A DNA stretch of 64,000 nucleotides, taken from Acidobacteriota bacterium (GTDB taxonomy: Bacteria; Acidobacteriota; Terriglobia; Terriglobales; SCQP01). Below the pieces are notes generated by a model. That model made no database searches. It was not told the DNA's origin and saw only the letters and a list, made by a program, of their open reading frames with translations. A program made the position numbers and the translations under genes. This document shows, piece after piece, positions 17,571 to 22,417 of this stretch; the first letter of the stretch is position 1, and the number at the start of each line of letters is the position of its first letter. The stretch spans positions 1-64,000 of the forward strand of contig DAHUYO010000010.1 of assembly GCA_027315185.1 (NCBI GenBank). Reading direction: 5' to 3'.

Positions 17571-20500
17571 CTATTCGCCGGGCACGAACAGCGGCGGAAT
17601 GTGCGCCGCCTTCATCCGCCGGTTCATGGCGGCGAGGTCGCGCGTGCGGAGAGCTTCCCAGCGGGCCAGCGCGTGTTGCAGCTTGCCCAGCAGCACCTTG
17701 GCATAGGCCTGCTGCTGCGCCGTCGGCGCGTCTTCGCCGCTGTCCACGGCGTTTTCCAAATAGCCCAACTGGCTGTTCAACTCGATGGGATAGTTGAGCA
17801 TCTCCTCGCTGGCGCTAGCTTTGGTTTGATAGAAGCGGTTTTCGAGGGCCAGCACCTTGGCGTCAAGGCGCGCCGCCGCGGCTTTCACCGGCGCGGCCTT
17901 GGGGCCATTCGCCAGATGCGCGATCAGGGCGGTCAGCTCCTGATGCAGCGCCTGGAGTCCGAACACCGCGTCGTGATCGGCTTTCACCCCAGCGCGCAGT
18001 TGTTCCATCAAGCGGTGCTGCGCCGCCAGCGCAGCGCCGGACACGGGATGACGCGGATCGGGGCGGACGACCAGCGGCTGGCGGTAGGTGTGGCCGTCGG
18101 CCGTCAGCGCGATCGTATAACGCCCGGGAACCACGGAGACGCCGATGGAATTGCCTTCGTCGTAGATGGCGTTGAGGATCTCTTTCGGCTTCGGGCCGCG
18201 CAGATCCCAGACGAAGCGGTTCATTCCCGCCTTCGCCGGCAGAGCGGGCGGCGGACCGGCGCGATGCGCGTAGTAATCCTTCGGCGGCGGGGGCAGCTTG
18301 TGCTTGACGCTGGTGAACTGGCGAACCAGCCGTCCCTGCGCGTTGTAGATGTCCAGGGAAATCGGCGTCTTGGGCGCCGCCTTCAGGTAATAGTCGAGCA
18401 CCGCTCCAGAGGGCGGATTTTGCCCTGCCGCCATGCCCGGGCGGACATGGAAGCTGGGCAGGTGCATCTGATACGCGGTCTCCGGGCGGTAGAGGATCGC
18501 CGCTTGCGCCGCCATACCCACATGGATTTGCCGCAGTGGGCTCAAGTCATCCAGAATCCAGAACGACCGGCCATGGGTCGCCGCCACCAGCTCCCCATCC
18601 TGGATCGCCAAATCCCGAACCGGGACATGCGGCAGGTTGAGCTGTAGCGGCTGCCAATGCCCGCCATCGTTGAAGGAGACATAAACGCCCCGCTCCGTGC
18701 CGCAGTACAGCAAGCCGCGGCGCACCGGATCCTCGCGCACCACGCGCACCGGCCCCACTTTGGGTAGACCGTCCACATTTTCGGTCCAGGTCCGGCCGTA
18801 GTCGTGGGTAATGAAGATCAGCGGTTCCTTGTCGCCGTTTTTATACCGGTTCACCGCCACGTAGGCGCTGGCCGGATCGAACGGCGAGGCGTCAATCAGG
18901 CTGATATTGCTCCATGCCGGCAGCGTCGGCGGCGTCACGTTTCGCCAGCTCTTGCCGCCGTTGCGCGTGAGCTGAACCAGGCCGTCGTCGGTGCCCACCC
19001 AGATCTCGCCCGCCTGCTTGGGCGAAGGCGCGATGGTGAAGATCAGGTCGTAGTATTCGGCGCTGGCTTGGTCCTTGGTGATCGGACCGCCCGACGGCCC
19101 TTGCTTGCTCTTGTCGTTGCGCGTCAGATCGGGGCTGATGCGCCGCCAGCTCATGCCGCCATTGGTGCTCGCGAACAGATATTGCGCCGCGGTGTACAAC
19201 AGATGCGGGTTCTCGGGAGAGAAGATCAGGGGCGCGGTCCAGGTGAAGCGCAGCTTGCGGCCCGCCGCCGGCATTCCATCGGGATCTTCGGGCCAGACGG
19301 AAACGTCCTGGGCGATGCCAGTGTGCAAATTGAAGCGGGTCAGAATGCCGAAATAGGCGCCCGCGTAGACGATGTGATAGTTGAGCGGATCGGGGGCGAT
19401 ATAGCCGCTCTCTCCGCCGCCGACCGGATACCAATCCCGCTGGGTGATCGCACCCCATTTGCTGGCGCTGGCGATGGCGACCGACGAGTTGTCCTGCTGC
19501 GCGCCGTAGGCGTAGAAGGGATCCCGGTTGTCCAAGGCGACGTGATAGAACTGCGCGGTGGGCTGGTTGTCCAGCGTGCTCCAGCTATGCCCGTTGTTGA
19601 GCGAGATGGTCGCGCCGCCGTCGTTGCCCACGATCATCCGTTTGGAGTGCCGCGGCGCGATCCACATGGCGTGGTTATCGCCATGCGGCACGTGCATGCG
19701 ATGAAAAATTTCTCCGCCGTCGGTGGAGCGGTAGAAATTGACGTTCATCTCATAGACGGTGTTGGTTTTGACCGGGTCGGCCAGGATGGTGGTGAAGTAC
19801 CACGCCCGCTGCCGGAAGCTCTGCGAGGAATTCACCCGCTTCCAATGGCCGCCCAGATCGTTGGAAACGTACAGCCCGCCTTTCTTCGCTTCCACCTGCG
19901 CGTAGACCCGCTCGCCGTTGGCGGCGACCGAGACGCTCATTTTTCCCAGCACGCCAGCGGCGAAGCCGTGGCCATCCATTCGCTTCCAGGTAACGCCGCC
20001 GTCGAGGGAACGGTACAGCCCGCTGCCCGGTCCGCCGCTGACCAGCTTCCACGGCCAGCGCCGCACCTGCCACAGCGCCGCGAACAAGATATGCGGATTG
20101 CGCGGATCCATGGCGATGCTGGTGGCGCCCGACTGATCGTTCACATACAGCACCCGCTGCCAGGTTTTGCCCCCGTCCTCGGAGCGATACACGCCGCGTT
20201 CGGTGCTGGGCGCATACACGCGCCCCAGCGCCGCCACCCACAGGCGGTTGGGATCGTGCGGGTCCACCACGATGCCCGCGATGTGCCGCGTCTTGCGCAG
20301 CCCTATGCGCGTCCAGGTCCGCCCGCCGTCCACCGATTTGTACATGCCATCGCCGTAGGTGGTGTCGGTGCGCGGGTCCGATTCGCCGGTGCCGACATAG
20401 ATGACATTGGGGTCCGACGGCGCGACGGCGATGGCGCCGATCGCCTGCGTCGGTTCTTTATCGAAGATGGGCCGCCAGGTATTGCCGGCGTCGGTGGTTT

Positions 20501-20726
20501 TCCACACCCCGCCTGCTACCGCGCCTAGATAAAAGGTGTCAGGATGTCCCGGCACGCCGGTGACCGCCTCGGTGCGGCCGCCGCGGAAGGGGCCGATCAG
20601 CCGCCATTTCATGCCGTTGAACAGACTGGGGCTGACGCCGCCGCTCGGCGCCGCCGCCCACAGTCCCGCCGCCAACGCTAGGGCCACCGTCGCCAGCAGC
20701 CCGTACCGCCGCCAAACCTGGATCAT
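17571..20726 (-). CDS. Secreted VPS10/BNR-repeat beta-propeller protein
   Basis: A 1051-residue exported protein. It has an N-terminal signal segment (WRRYGLLATVALALAAGLWA) and then many sialidase-type BNR/VPS10 repeats of the form SxDGGxTW (for example SVDGGRTWTRI, SEDGGKTWQRV, TNGGMSWRRI), forming one or two beta-propellers to about residue 700. The C-terminal third is an Ig-like/helical domain ending without an anchor. Such proteins are common and often duplicated in Acidobacteriota; the ligand or enzymatic activity is unknown. GGGAG precedes ATG at 20726. The frame is open upstream to 21713, but that part is antisense to the AhpD-like gene. Confidence 0.86.
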   Translation of the reverse strand: MIQVWRRYGLLATVALALAAGLWAAAPSGGVSPSLFNGMKWRLIGPFRGGRTEAVTGVPGHPDTFYLGAVAGGVWKTTDAGNTWRPIFDKEPTQAIGAIAVAPSDPNVIYVGTGESDPRTDTTYGDGMYKSVDGGRTWTRIGLRKTRHIAGIVVDPHDPNRLWVAALGRVYAPSTERGVYRSEDGGKTWQRVLYVNDQSGATSIAMDPRNPHILFAALWQVRRWPWKLVSGGPGSGLYRSLDGGVTWKRMDGHGFAAGVLGKMSVSVAANGERVYAQVEAKKGGLYVSNDLGGHWKRVNSSQSFRQRAWYFTTILADPVKTNTVYEMNVNFYRSTDGGEIFHRMHVPHGDNHAMWIAPRHSKRMIVGNDGGATISLNNGHSWSTLDNQPTAQFYHVALDNRDPFYAYGAQQDNSSVAIASASKWGAITQRDWYPVGGGESGYIAPDPLNYHIVYAGAYFGILTRFNLHTGIAQDVSVWPEDPDGMPAAGRKLRFTWTAPLIFSPENPHLLYTAAQYLFASTNGGMSWRRISPDLTRNDKSKQGPSGGPITKDQASAEYYDLIFTIAPSPKQAGEIWVGTDDGLVQLTRNGGKSWRNVTPPTLPAWSNISLIDASPFDPASAYVAVNRYKNGDKEPLIFITHDYGRTWTENVDGLPKVGPVRVVREDPVRRGLLYCGTERGVYVSFNDGGHWQPLQLNLPHVPVRDLAIQDGELVAATHGRSFWILDDLSPLRQIHVGMAAQAAILYRPETAYQMHLPSFHVRPGMAAGQNPPSGAVLDYYLKAAPKTPISLDIYNAQGRLVRQFTSVKHKLPPPPKDYYAHRAGPPPALPAKAGMNRFVWDLRGPKPKEILNAIYDEGNSIGVSVVPGRYTIALTADGHTYRQPLVVRPDPRHPVSGAALAAQHRLMEQLRAGVKADHDAVFGLQALHQELTALIAHLANGPKAAPVKAAAARLDAKVLALENRFYQTKASASEEMLNYPIELNSQLGYLENAVDSGEDAPTAQQQAYAKVLLGKLQHALARWEALRTRDLAAMNRRMKAAHIPPLFVPGE

Positions 20727-20900
20727 TCGCTTTCTCCCGATGCCGTCCCAAGATGGAACCCCAAAGCATACCCCACAGCCCCCGGCGGCGGCTAATTGGT
20801 TTTGGGGGCTGGCGGTAGCCGCTTCTGGGCATTGTTTTCCTCCCGCGGCCGCGGGCATCCTGACACCGGCAGCCCGGTCGCGACGGAAATTCGGCAGCGG

Positions 20901-20935
20901 GACGCCCCGCCGTAGGCGGGGCTGGGTGCCGCGCG
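20901..20935. repeat. Dispersed palindromic repeat I, copy 1
   Basis: The sequence around GCCCCGCC-GTA-GGCGGGGC followed by TGGGTGCC matches the element at 42181-42220, with a shorter relative at 53920-53945. Here it sits in the 246-bp divergent region between the BNR gene and the selenoprotein candidate. Confidence 0.5.
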
Positions 20936-20972
20936 GGGCTATGGTGCTCCTCGCTAGAAGCGTTGGAGGCGA

Positions 20973-21587
20973 ATGATGGAAGTGATGTATCTCCCCGAAG
21001 TCGAAGCCGGGCCCGGCGGCGGACCCTACGGCGCCTTGGTCGCCGCCGCCCGCTCCCAGGGCGCGCAGCCGCCACAGATTTTCCACCTGTTCGCCTACCG
21101 CCCGGAGGCCACGCAGCACCTCGCCGCCTTCACCCAAGCCGTGCTGCGCGGCCCCTCGGACCTGTCCCCTGGGTTGCGCGAACTGATCGCCGCGTTTACC
21201 TCCCGCGGCAACGACTGCGAATTTTGAACCGGCAGCCACGCCGCGGTCGCGGCGGAACTGCTGGGCGATGCGGCGCGGGTACAGGCGGTGCTGGCGGATT
21301 TTCACCAAGCTCCGATCCCCGACGCTGAACGCGCGCTCTTCGCCTTCGTCGCGCGCCTCAACCGCGCGCCGGCCAGCATCACTGGCGCCGATGTCGCCGC
21401 CGTGCTCGCCGCCGGCTGGAGCCAATCGGCGGTGTACGACGCAATCACCGTCTGCGCCCTGTTCAACTTCTACAACCGTTGGATTGACGGCTCCGGCGTT
21501 CACGGCCTGACGCCGGAGGGCTACGCGCGATCCGCTCAGCGCTTGGTGCGCTTCGGCTATGGATCCGGACCTTCCGGCCAGCCATGA
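20973..21587 (+). CDS. AhpD-like (carboxymuconolactone decarboxylase family) selenoprotein, CxxU, read through TGA at 21225-21227
   Basis: A 204-residue protein interrupted by an in-frame TGA at codon 85. Both halves belong to one AhpD/CMD-type peroxidase-related protein. The active-site region reads Glu70 ... Cys82-Glu-Phe-[UGA85]-Thr-Gly-Ser-His89. The spacing Glu-12-Cys-x-x-Cys-x-x-x-His is that of AhpD (Glu118, Cys130, Cys133, His137 in the mycobacterial enzyme), so UGA occupies the peroxidatic Cys. A hairpin directly after UGA has the features of a bacterial SECIS (separate entry). GGAGG at 20965-20969 precedes two adjacent ATGs (20973, 20976); either could start. Predicted role: selenol-based peroxide or thiol redox chemistry, next to a 1-Cys peroxiredoxin. 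The alternatives are a pseudogene or a base error. Confidence 0.82.
21225..21264 (+). promoter_or_regulatory. UGA selenocysteine codon and bacterial SECIS element
   Basis: TGA (21225-21227) is followed by an outer 7-bp stem (21229-21235 with 21258-21264, one G-U), a 3x3 internal loop and an inner 6-bp stem (21239-21244 CGCCGC with 21249-21254 GCGGCG). The stem is capped by the tetraloop GGTC (21245-21248). The loop starts 17 nt after UGA, inside the range expected for bacterial SECIS, and the GGUC loop resembles the SelB-contacted loop of E. coli fdhF. All pairing was read directly from the bases. Confidence 0.82.
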
Positions 21588-21646
21588 TATGATCGTTTCC
21601 ATGGTCGCCCGGCGGATGTGTTGTTGTTGTGTTCCATCCCGCTCCC

Positions 21647-21727
21647 GGTGCGCCTGATCCCGTTTTTCGCACCTTCCGCCTTGGCGGAAGCCGATTTCCA
21701 ACAGGCCCACCAAACGGTGGGCTTTTT
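21647..21727 (+). promoter_or_regulatory. Structured leader (three hairpins) before the peroxiredoxin gene
   Basis: Three successive hairpins precede the peroxiredoxin gene: GGTGCG/CGCACC (21647-21652/21668-21673), CTTCCGCC/GGCGGAAG (21673-21680/21683-21690) and the terminator stem at 21705-21722. A TATGAT hexamer just after the upstream stop (21588-21593) is a possible -10, with no clear -35. The arrangement resembles an attenuator or an unrecognised riboswitch; it could instead simply end the upstream transcript. Confidence 0.4.
21705..21727 (+). terminator. Intrinsic terminator 24 bases before the peroxiredoxin start
   Basis: GCCCACC (21705-21711), loop AAAC, GGTGGGC (21716-21722), then five T residues. 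It is positioned between the selenoprotein stop (21587) and the peroxiredoxin Shine-Dalgarno sequence, so it either ends the first transcript or attenuates the second. Confidence 0.7.
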
Positions 21728-21751: not shown

Positions 21752-22417
21752 ATGAGCATTGAAAATGGCGCCGCTCCCAGGAGCCTGCCCCGCATCAACG
21801 ATCCCGCTCCCGACTTCGAGGCGAAGTCCACGCAAGGGGTCATCCACCTTAGCGATTACAAGGGCAAATGGGTGATGCTGTTCTCCCATCCCGCCGACTT
21901 CACGCCAGTCTGCAGCACGGAGTTCATCCAATTCGCGCGCCGCTACGCGGATTTCCAGGCCCTGGGCGTGCAGCCCATCGGCGTCAGCGTGGACAGCATC
22001 TTTTCCCACATCGCCTGGATGCGCAATCTGGAGCAAAACGCCAAGGTCAAGGTGCAGTTCCCGGTGGTCGCGGATCTCGACACCCGCGTGTCGCAGGCCT
22101 ACGGCATGATCCATCCCGGCGCCAGCGACACCGCGCCGGTGCGGGCGGTCTTCTTCATTGATCCCAAGCAGGTCATCCGCGCCATTCTGTATTACCCGCA
22201 GTCCACCGGCCGCAGCGTGGATGAGATTCTGCGCGTCTTCGAGGCGCTGCAAACCACCGACGCGTACGGCGTTTCCACGCCCGCGGACTGGAAGCACGGC
22301 CAGAACGTCGTTCTGCCGCCGCCGCAAACCCAGGCCGATGCGGAAAAGCGCGTCGCCGACAGCAGCCTGAAGCAGCACGACTGGTTCCTGGCGGAGAAGG
22401 AGCTGGCCAAGAAGTAG
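21752..22417 (+). CDS. 1-Cys peroxiredoxin (Prx6 family)
   Basis: A 221-residue cytosolic peroxidase. The peroxidatic motif PADFTPVCSTE is near residue 46, with the conserved catalytic Arg in the later DLDTRVSQAYG region. The Prx6-type C-terminal arm is present (TPADWKHGQNVVLPPP). No second Cys is present, so recycling needs an external thiol or another partner. AAGGAGA lies eight bases before ATG at 21752. The neighbouring AhpD-like selenoprotein is an attractive but unproven reductant or parallel peroxidase, by analogy with AhpC/AhpD pairing. Confidence 0.94.
   Translation: MSIENGAAPRSLPRINDPAPDFEAKSTQGVIHLSDYKGKWVMLFSHPADFTPVCSTEFIQFARRYADFQALGVQPIGVSVDSIFSHIAWMRNLEQNAKVKVQFPVVADLDTRVSQAYGMIHPGASDTAPVRAVFFIDPKQVIRAILYYPQSTGRSVDEILRVFEALQTTDAYGVSTPADWKHGQNVVLPPPQTQADAEKRVADSSLKQHDWFLAEKELAKK

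Follow-up and report, generated by a model that had tools for sequence, protein, structure and literature searches.

An AhpD-Like Gene with an In-Frame UGA in an Acidobacterial Genome: A Predicted CxxU Selenoprotein and Its Hairpin

The Locus and Its Reading Frame

The window, a stretch of 64,000 nucleotides, comes from a soil-type acidobacterial MAG of 3.77 Mb (86% complete, 263 contigs). On its plus strand, positions 20973–21587 hold a single AhpD/CMD-family protein whose frame, as read from sequence and translation, is interrupted only by a TGA (21225–21227) and ends with another TGA (21585–21587). Translation table 11 divides this region into two ORFs of 84 and 99 aa, exactly the fragments that an earlier note on this DNA had expected from standard gene callers. 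The joined protein scores 103.4 bits against TIGR01926, above the curated cut-off of 81.8, whereas the portions before and after the UGA reach 24.6 and 60.6 bits, respectively, which agrees with that note's view of one protein split by the TGA. The 204-residue read-through product also matches the Pfam CMD family with 40 bits. The features of the locus are collected in Table 1.

Table 1. Features of the AhpD-like gene and its mRNA hairpin
Feature	Coordinates	Strand	Basis
Sec-containing AhpD-like gene (TIGR01926, CMD fold), 203–204 aa, predicted	20973..21587	+	Joined-frame homology; likely start ATG 20976
GGAGG ribosome-binding site	20965..20969	+	Read directly from sequence
In-frame UGA, predicted selenocysteine, residue 85, CxxU motif CEFU	21225..21227	+	Aligned loci and Sec machinery
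TGC, Cys82, predicted resolving cysteine	21216..21218	+	Invariant in 87/87 Sec homologues
Bacterial SECIS upper hairpin CGCCGC-GGUC-GCGGCG, apical loop 21245–21248	21239..21254	+	Folding, conservation, covariation
Lower stem CCGGCAG/CUGCUGG, 21229–21235 with 21258–21264	21229..21264	+	Predicted in window only

The frame, coordinates, and active-site spacing given in the earlier note hold, with one small correction to the start. ATG 20976 is a likelier start than 20973 because it lies 6 nt after the GGAGG sequence and because residue 2 is where the majority of homologue matches set in. Adopting this start lowers all residue numbers by one; the numbers used here count from 20973. A long antisense ORF (17571–21713, minus strand) covers the same stretch and is rejected as a high-GC artefact, since all homology lies on the plus strand.

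Active Site and Fold

Glu70, Cys82, UGA85, and His89 reproduce the spacing of the AhpD active site (Glu-x11-Cys-x2-Cys/Sec-x3-His), as had been claimed from the sequence. Homologues were drawn from 80 loci of a GTDB contig scan and from a 399-genome sample of the class, and none of the 87 distinct Sec homologues departs from E70, C82, and H89. In Mycobacterium tuberculosis (Mtb) AhpD (1knc, 1gu9), the active site Glu118/Cys130/Cys133/His137 has the same spacing as E70/C82/U85/H89, with Sec in the window protein in place of Cys133. His132 of Mtb AhpD, which adjoins the second Cys of its pair, is Phe84 in the window protein, so the proton relay differs in part from that of the Mtb enzyme. Mtb AhpD is only a remote fold match (E about 1–3).

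The AlphaFold2 model of the protein (mean pLDDT 93.6) has the all-helical AhpD-like fold, and its best Foldseek matches are the AhpD-like structures 2prr, 6k40, 3c1l, and 2oyo. By sequence, the closest PDB relatives are AhpD-like as well: 6k40 (E 6e-20) and 2oyo (E 3e-17). The Cys-form AhpD-like structures 6k40, 2oyo, 3c1l, 2prr, and 2pfx share the fold with TM 0.71–0.79 on the query; they carry Cys rather than Sec and are 21–29% identical to the window protein in the structural alignments. In the alignments with 6k40, 2oyo, and 3c1l, CxxC stands where the window protein has CxxU, and the E and H residues are aligned. The family NF041238, AhpD_rel_CFYUT (seleno)protein, likewise has an AhpD-like domain with CxxU but is a different, longer family (357 positions), against which the window protein scores 42 bits with a cut-off of 175.

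Proposed Function and Mechanism

The region very probably encodes an AhpD-like thiol/selenol redox enzyme in which UGA85 is read as Sec by means of the downstream hairpin. SelB, recruited by this mRNA hairpin, would bring Sec-tRNA(Sec) to UGA85, and the active site of the resulting full-length protein would combine Cys82-x-x-Sec85 with Glu70 and His89, which occupy the AhpD proton-relay positions. By homology, Sec85 would attack a peroxide or disulfide substrate, Cys82 would resolve the Sec85 intermediate as a selenenylsulfide, and the enzyme would be re-reduced by a thiol system. The putative substrate is either an organic hydroperoxide or a peroxiredoxin that acts as partner.

The gene may instead encode a true selenoprotein with a role other than that of a peroxidase or Prx reductase, such as dehalogenase- or decarboxylase-like chemistry of the kind found in other enzymes of the CMD fold, Bmp8 among them. 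This alternative is unlikely, albeit one to be reckoned with. The CMD fold hosts varied reactions, the debrominase Bmp8 (6ohi, 6ohj) is among both the fold and the sequence matches, although these are weaker, and the gene neighbours are not conserved. Against it stand the CxxU motif and the E and H residues spaced from it as in AhpD, together the signature of thiol-redox chemistry, and the AhpD-like identity of the top fold and sequence matches.

Neighbourhood clustering of the 80 loci found no neighbour shared by more than 11 of them; in 11 loci, for which Corallococcus is the representative, an alpha/beta hydrolase lies upstream. A peroxiredoxin gene (21752–22417) follows the AhpD-like gene only in the window genus (L020, L021, L050, and L051), and a terminator-like hairpin separates the two genes. 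Since the association is confined to one genus and interrupted by this hairpin, an operon with the peroxiredoxin was rejected as functional evidence.

The SECIS Hairpin

Counted from the UGA, 46 nt form a structure of -25.8 kcal/mol (z -3.45) that includes a hairpin of 6 pairs with a 4-nt GGUC loop at a spacing of 17 nt from the UGA. Published bSECIS criteria call for a loop of 3–9 nt, an upper stem of 4–16 bp, a distance of 16–37 nt from the UGA, and an MFE of at most -7.5 kcal/mol, with G in the first two loop positions and the pattern N1-G[G/U]N-N2 in which N1 and N2 are paired (PMC13188914). The window hairpin falls within all of these limits.

Among 76 distinct Sec sequences, the six pairs of the upper hairpin are nearly invariant, the second loop base is always G, and all 7 pairs are kept in 67. 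The closing pair 21245–21248 is G-C in 41 of the 76, A-U in 28, and G-U in 4; both of its bases are third codon positions, and the G-C/A-U covariation is synonymous. A Watson-Crick closing pair occurs in 69/76 sequences versus a mean of 37.6 and a maximum of 50 in 1000 shuffles that redealt synonymous codons among the sequences, ignoring relatedness. As a further control, Cys homologues from the same class and the same protein family keep on average 3.9/7 pairs versus 6.83/7 in Sec sequences (uncorrected for relatedness) and are without the hairpin. This covariation at synonymous sites amounts to a natural experiment on keeping an mRNA hairpin within a coding sequence. The lower stem is not conserved in the family and was therefore left out of the SECIS element, for which it is probably not essential. 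Rfam at gathering thresholds gives no match in the window, a result with no bearing on this element.

Selenocysteine Machinery and the Decoding of UGA

The genes that the earlier note had proposed as a check are present in the genome: the assembly contains matches to SelA (529 bits), SelB (300 bits), and SelD (365 bits) and a tRNA-Sec with anticodon UCA (67 bits), on which ARAGORN agrees. No formate dehydrogenase above its family cut-off was found in the 86%-complete assembly to explain the retention of this machinery.

The frame would be open under any code in which TGA is a sense codon, and UGA85 could thus specify Trp or another standard residue in a recoded genome or through a natural suppressor. 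This possibility is very remote given that selA, selB, selD, and tRNA-Sec(UCA) all occur in the genome together with a tRNA-Trp bearing the anticodon CCA, that UGA terminates the same gene at 21585, that homologues lacking UGA nearly all have Cys at this position, and that a SECIS hairpin lies downstream. Selenocysteine insertion at residue 85 is the decoding to which these features point.

Conservation of the UGA

Some homologue is present in 226 of the 399 sampled genomes of the class. The sources of homologues are Acidobacteriota, Myxococcota, and Gemmatimonadota, along with one bin each under the labels Planctomycetota and Cyanobacteria; they include the myxobacterial isolates Corallococcus, Myxococcus, Pyxidicoccus, and Archangium. 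Codon 85 is TGA in 96 of 100 aligned loci and TGC in the other four, one of which is a distant paralogue. At the protein level, residue 85 is Sec in 87 of 108 distinct homologues, Cys in 20, and Ser in 1, in line with the Sec or Cys that the earlier note had suggested looking for. Cys82 is absent from 2 of the 21 non-Sec homologues.

TGA is a stop codon in table 11, and a mutation to TGA could have truncated the gene such that only the 84-aa fragment is made. This is very improbable: the identical codon occurs in those 96 loci across several phyla, synonymous sites preserve the hairpin, and the half downstream of the UGA is conserved. In comparisons of the window gene with its nearest relatives, dN/dS is 0.16–0.19 after the UGA and 0.09–0.28 before it, values that argue for purifying selection on the downstream half and against the decay that had been named as a refuting observation. 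A sequencing or assembly error masking TGC or TGT is the least probable reading of all, for although the MAG containing the window is fragmented, TGA is also found in the independent same-genus assemblies G355, L050, and L051 (the copies in G355 and L050 are 96–97% identical to the window gene), in a further MAG, and in isolate genomes of Corallococcus, Myxococcus, and Archangium. A decayed gene and a sequencing error are thus effectively excluded, and reading of UGA85 as Sec is the preferred interpretation.

In the class sample, SelA was detected in 69 of 72 genomes with the Sec form versus 7 of 17 with Cys or Ser forms only, a contrast for which Fisher tests ignore relatedness. The Sec-form MAGs without a detected selA (G148, G299, and G393) are fragmented, with 77–98% completeness, and incompleteness is the simplest reading of its absence. 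A FastTree count gives five label changes with Sec as the root state; the tree is midpoint-rooted, so the direction of the Sec/Cys changes is tentative. In one homologue, L145 (genome G063), TCC (Ser) occupies the Sec/Cys position; the relatives closest to it have Cys, and no selA was detected in its genome.

Relation to Known Selenoproteins

Listings of AhpD-like CxxU selenoproteins from COG2128/TIGR01926 go back to 2005, with 27 sequences in one account (PMC1088965) and 299 in another (PMC2398784). TIGR01926 with CxxU also appears in a selenoproteome table (PMC13188914), one published TIGR01926 example is MCB9421940.1, and the family is covered in a further source (PMC9312934). These listings substantiate the statement in the earlier note that AhpD-like proteins are among the predicted bacterial selenoprotein families. 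A count of acidobacterial selenoproteins dates from 2006 (PMC1794560). The published members share with the window gene the NCBIfam model, the CxxU motif, and a bacterial SECIS; they derive mostly from marine metagenomes, whereas the clade of the window gene is large and mostly from soil. No mention of the acidobacterial/myxobacterial clade was found in the literature searched on AhpD-like selenoproteins. The assignment of the window gene and its clade to an already known kind of selenoprotein, as a new member, is well supported.

A broader proposal is doubtful. It holds that this clade of AhpD-like selenoenzymes, absent from the literature found, has Sec as its apparent ground state, which Cys or Ser replaced some five times, in many cases upon loss of the sel genes; that it would be one of the main ways in which Acidobacteriota and Myxococcota of soil use selenium; and that in the window genus the protein would be a selenol reductase dedicated to the neighbouring peroxiredoxin.

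A gene caller ending at the UGA would split an active-site selenoenzyme across a large, mostly soil bacterial group. The matched Sec and Cys forms make the gain from Sec directly testable.

Further Observations in the Genome

A search with NF041238 found a second AhpD-like gene in the same genome (C182:28459–29031, equivalent to L182 1516–2088). It has a UGA in the CxxU motif GCFYUVESH, scores 104 bits to TIGR01926, and carries a SECIS-like hairpin with a G-first loop 3′ of the UGA; the in-frame TGA is found in all 8 genomes with a match. In the SelD gene (L017; C208:30955–31887, minus strand), the codon for the catalytic Cys/Sec residue is an in-frame UGA (...MAKAAGUASKL...), and SelD is itself a predicted selenoprotein. 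Together with the window gene, these bring the number of predicted selenoproteins in the genome to three or more.

Upstream of the peroxiredoxin gene, a short ORF at 21601–21657 encodes MVARRMCCCCVPSRSRCA followed by a stop and contains four consecutive Cys codons. An intrinsic-terminator-like hairpin (21703–21724) lies just before the peroxiredoxin start, and the two elements together look like a cysteine-sensing transcription attenuator; no description of such a Cys-run element for this phylum was found in the literature searched. L021 and L050 carry the MVARRMCCCCVPSRSRCA ORF unchanged, and ORFs with comparable Cys runs precede peroxiredoxin genes by 140–200 nt in L161 (MLNSMFTLCCCCCIPARVR), L167 (MTTISNTLSLRCCCCGCLAGVRG), and L174 (MLNPTSMCCCCRCGFARV).
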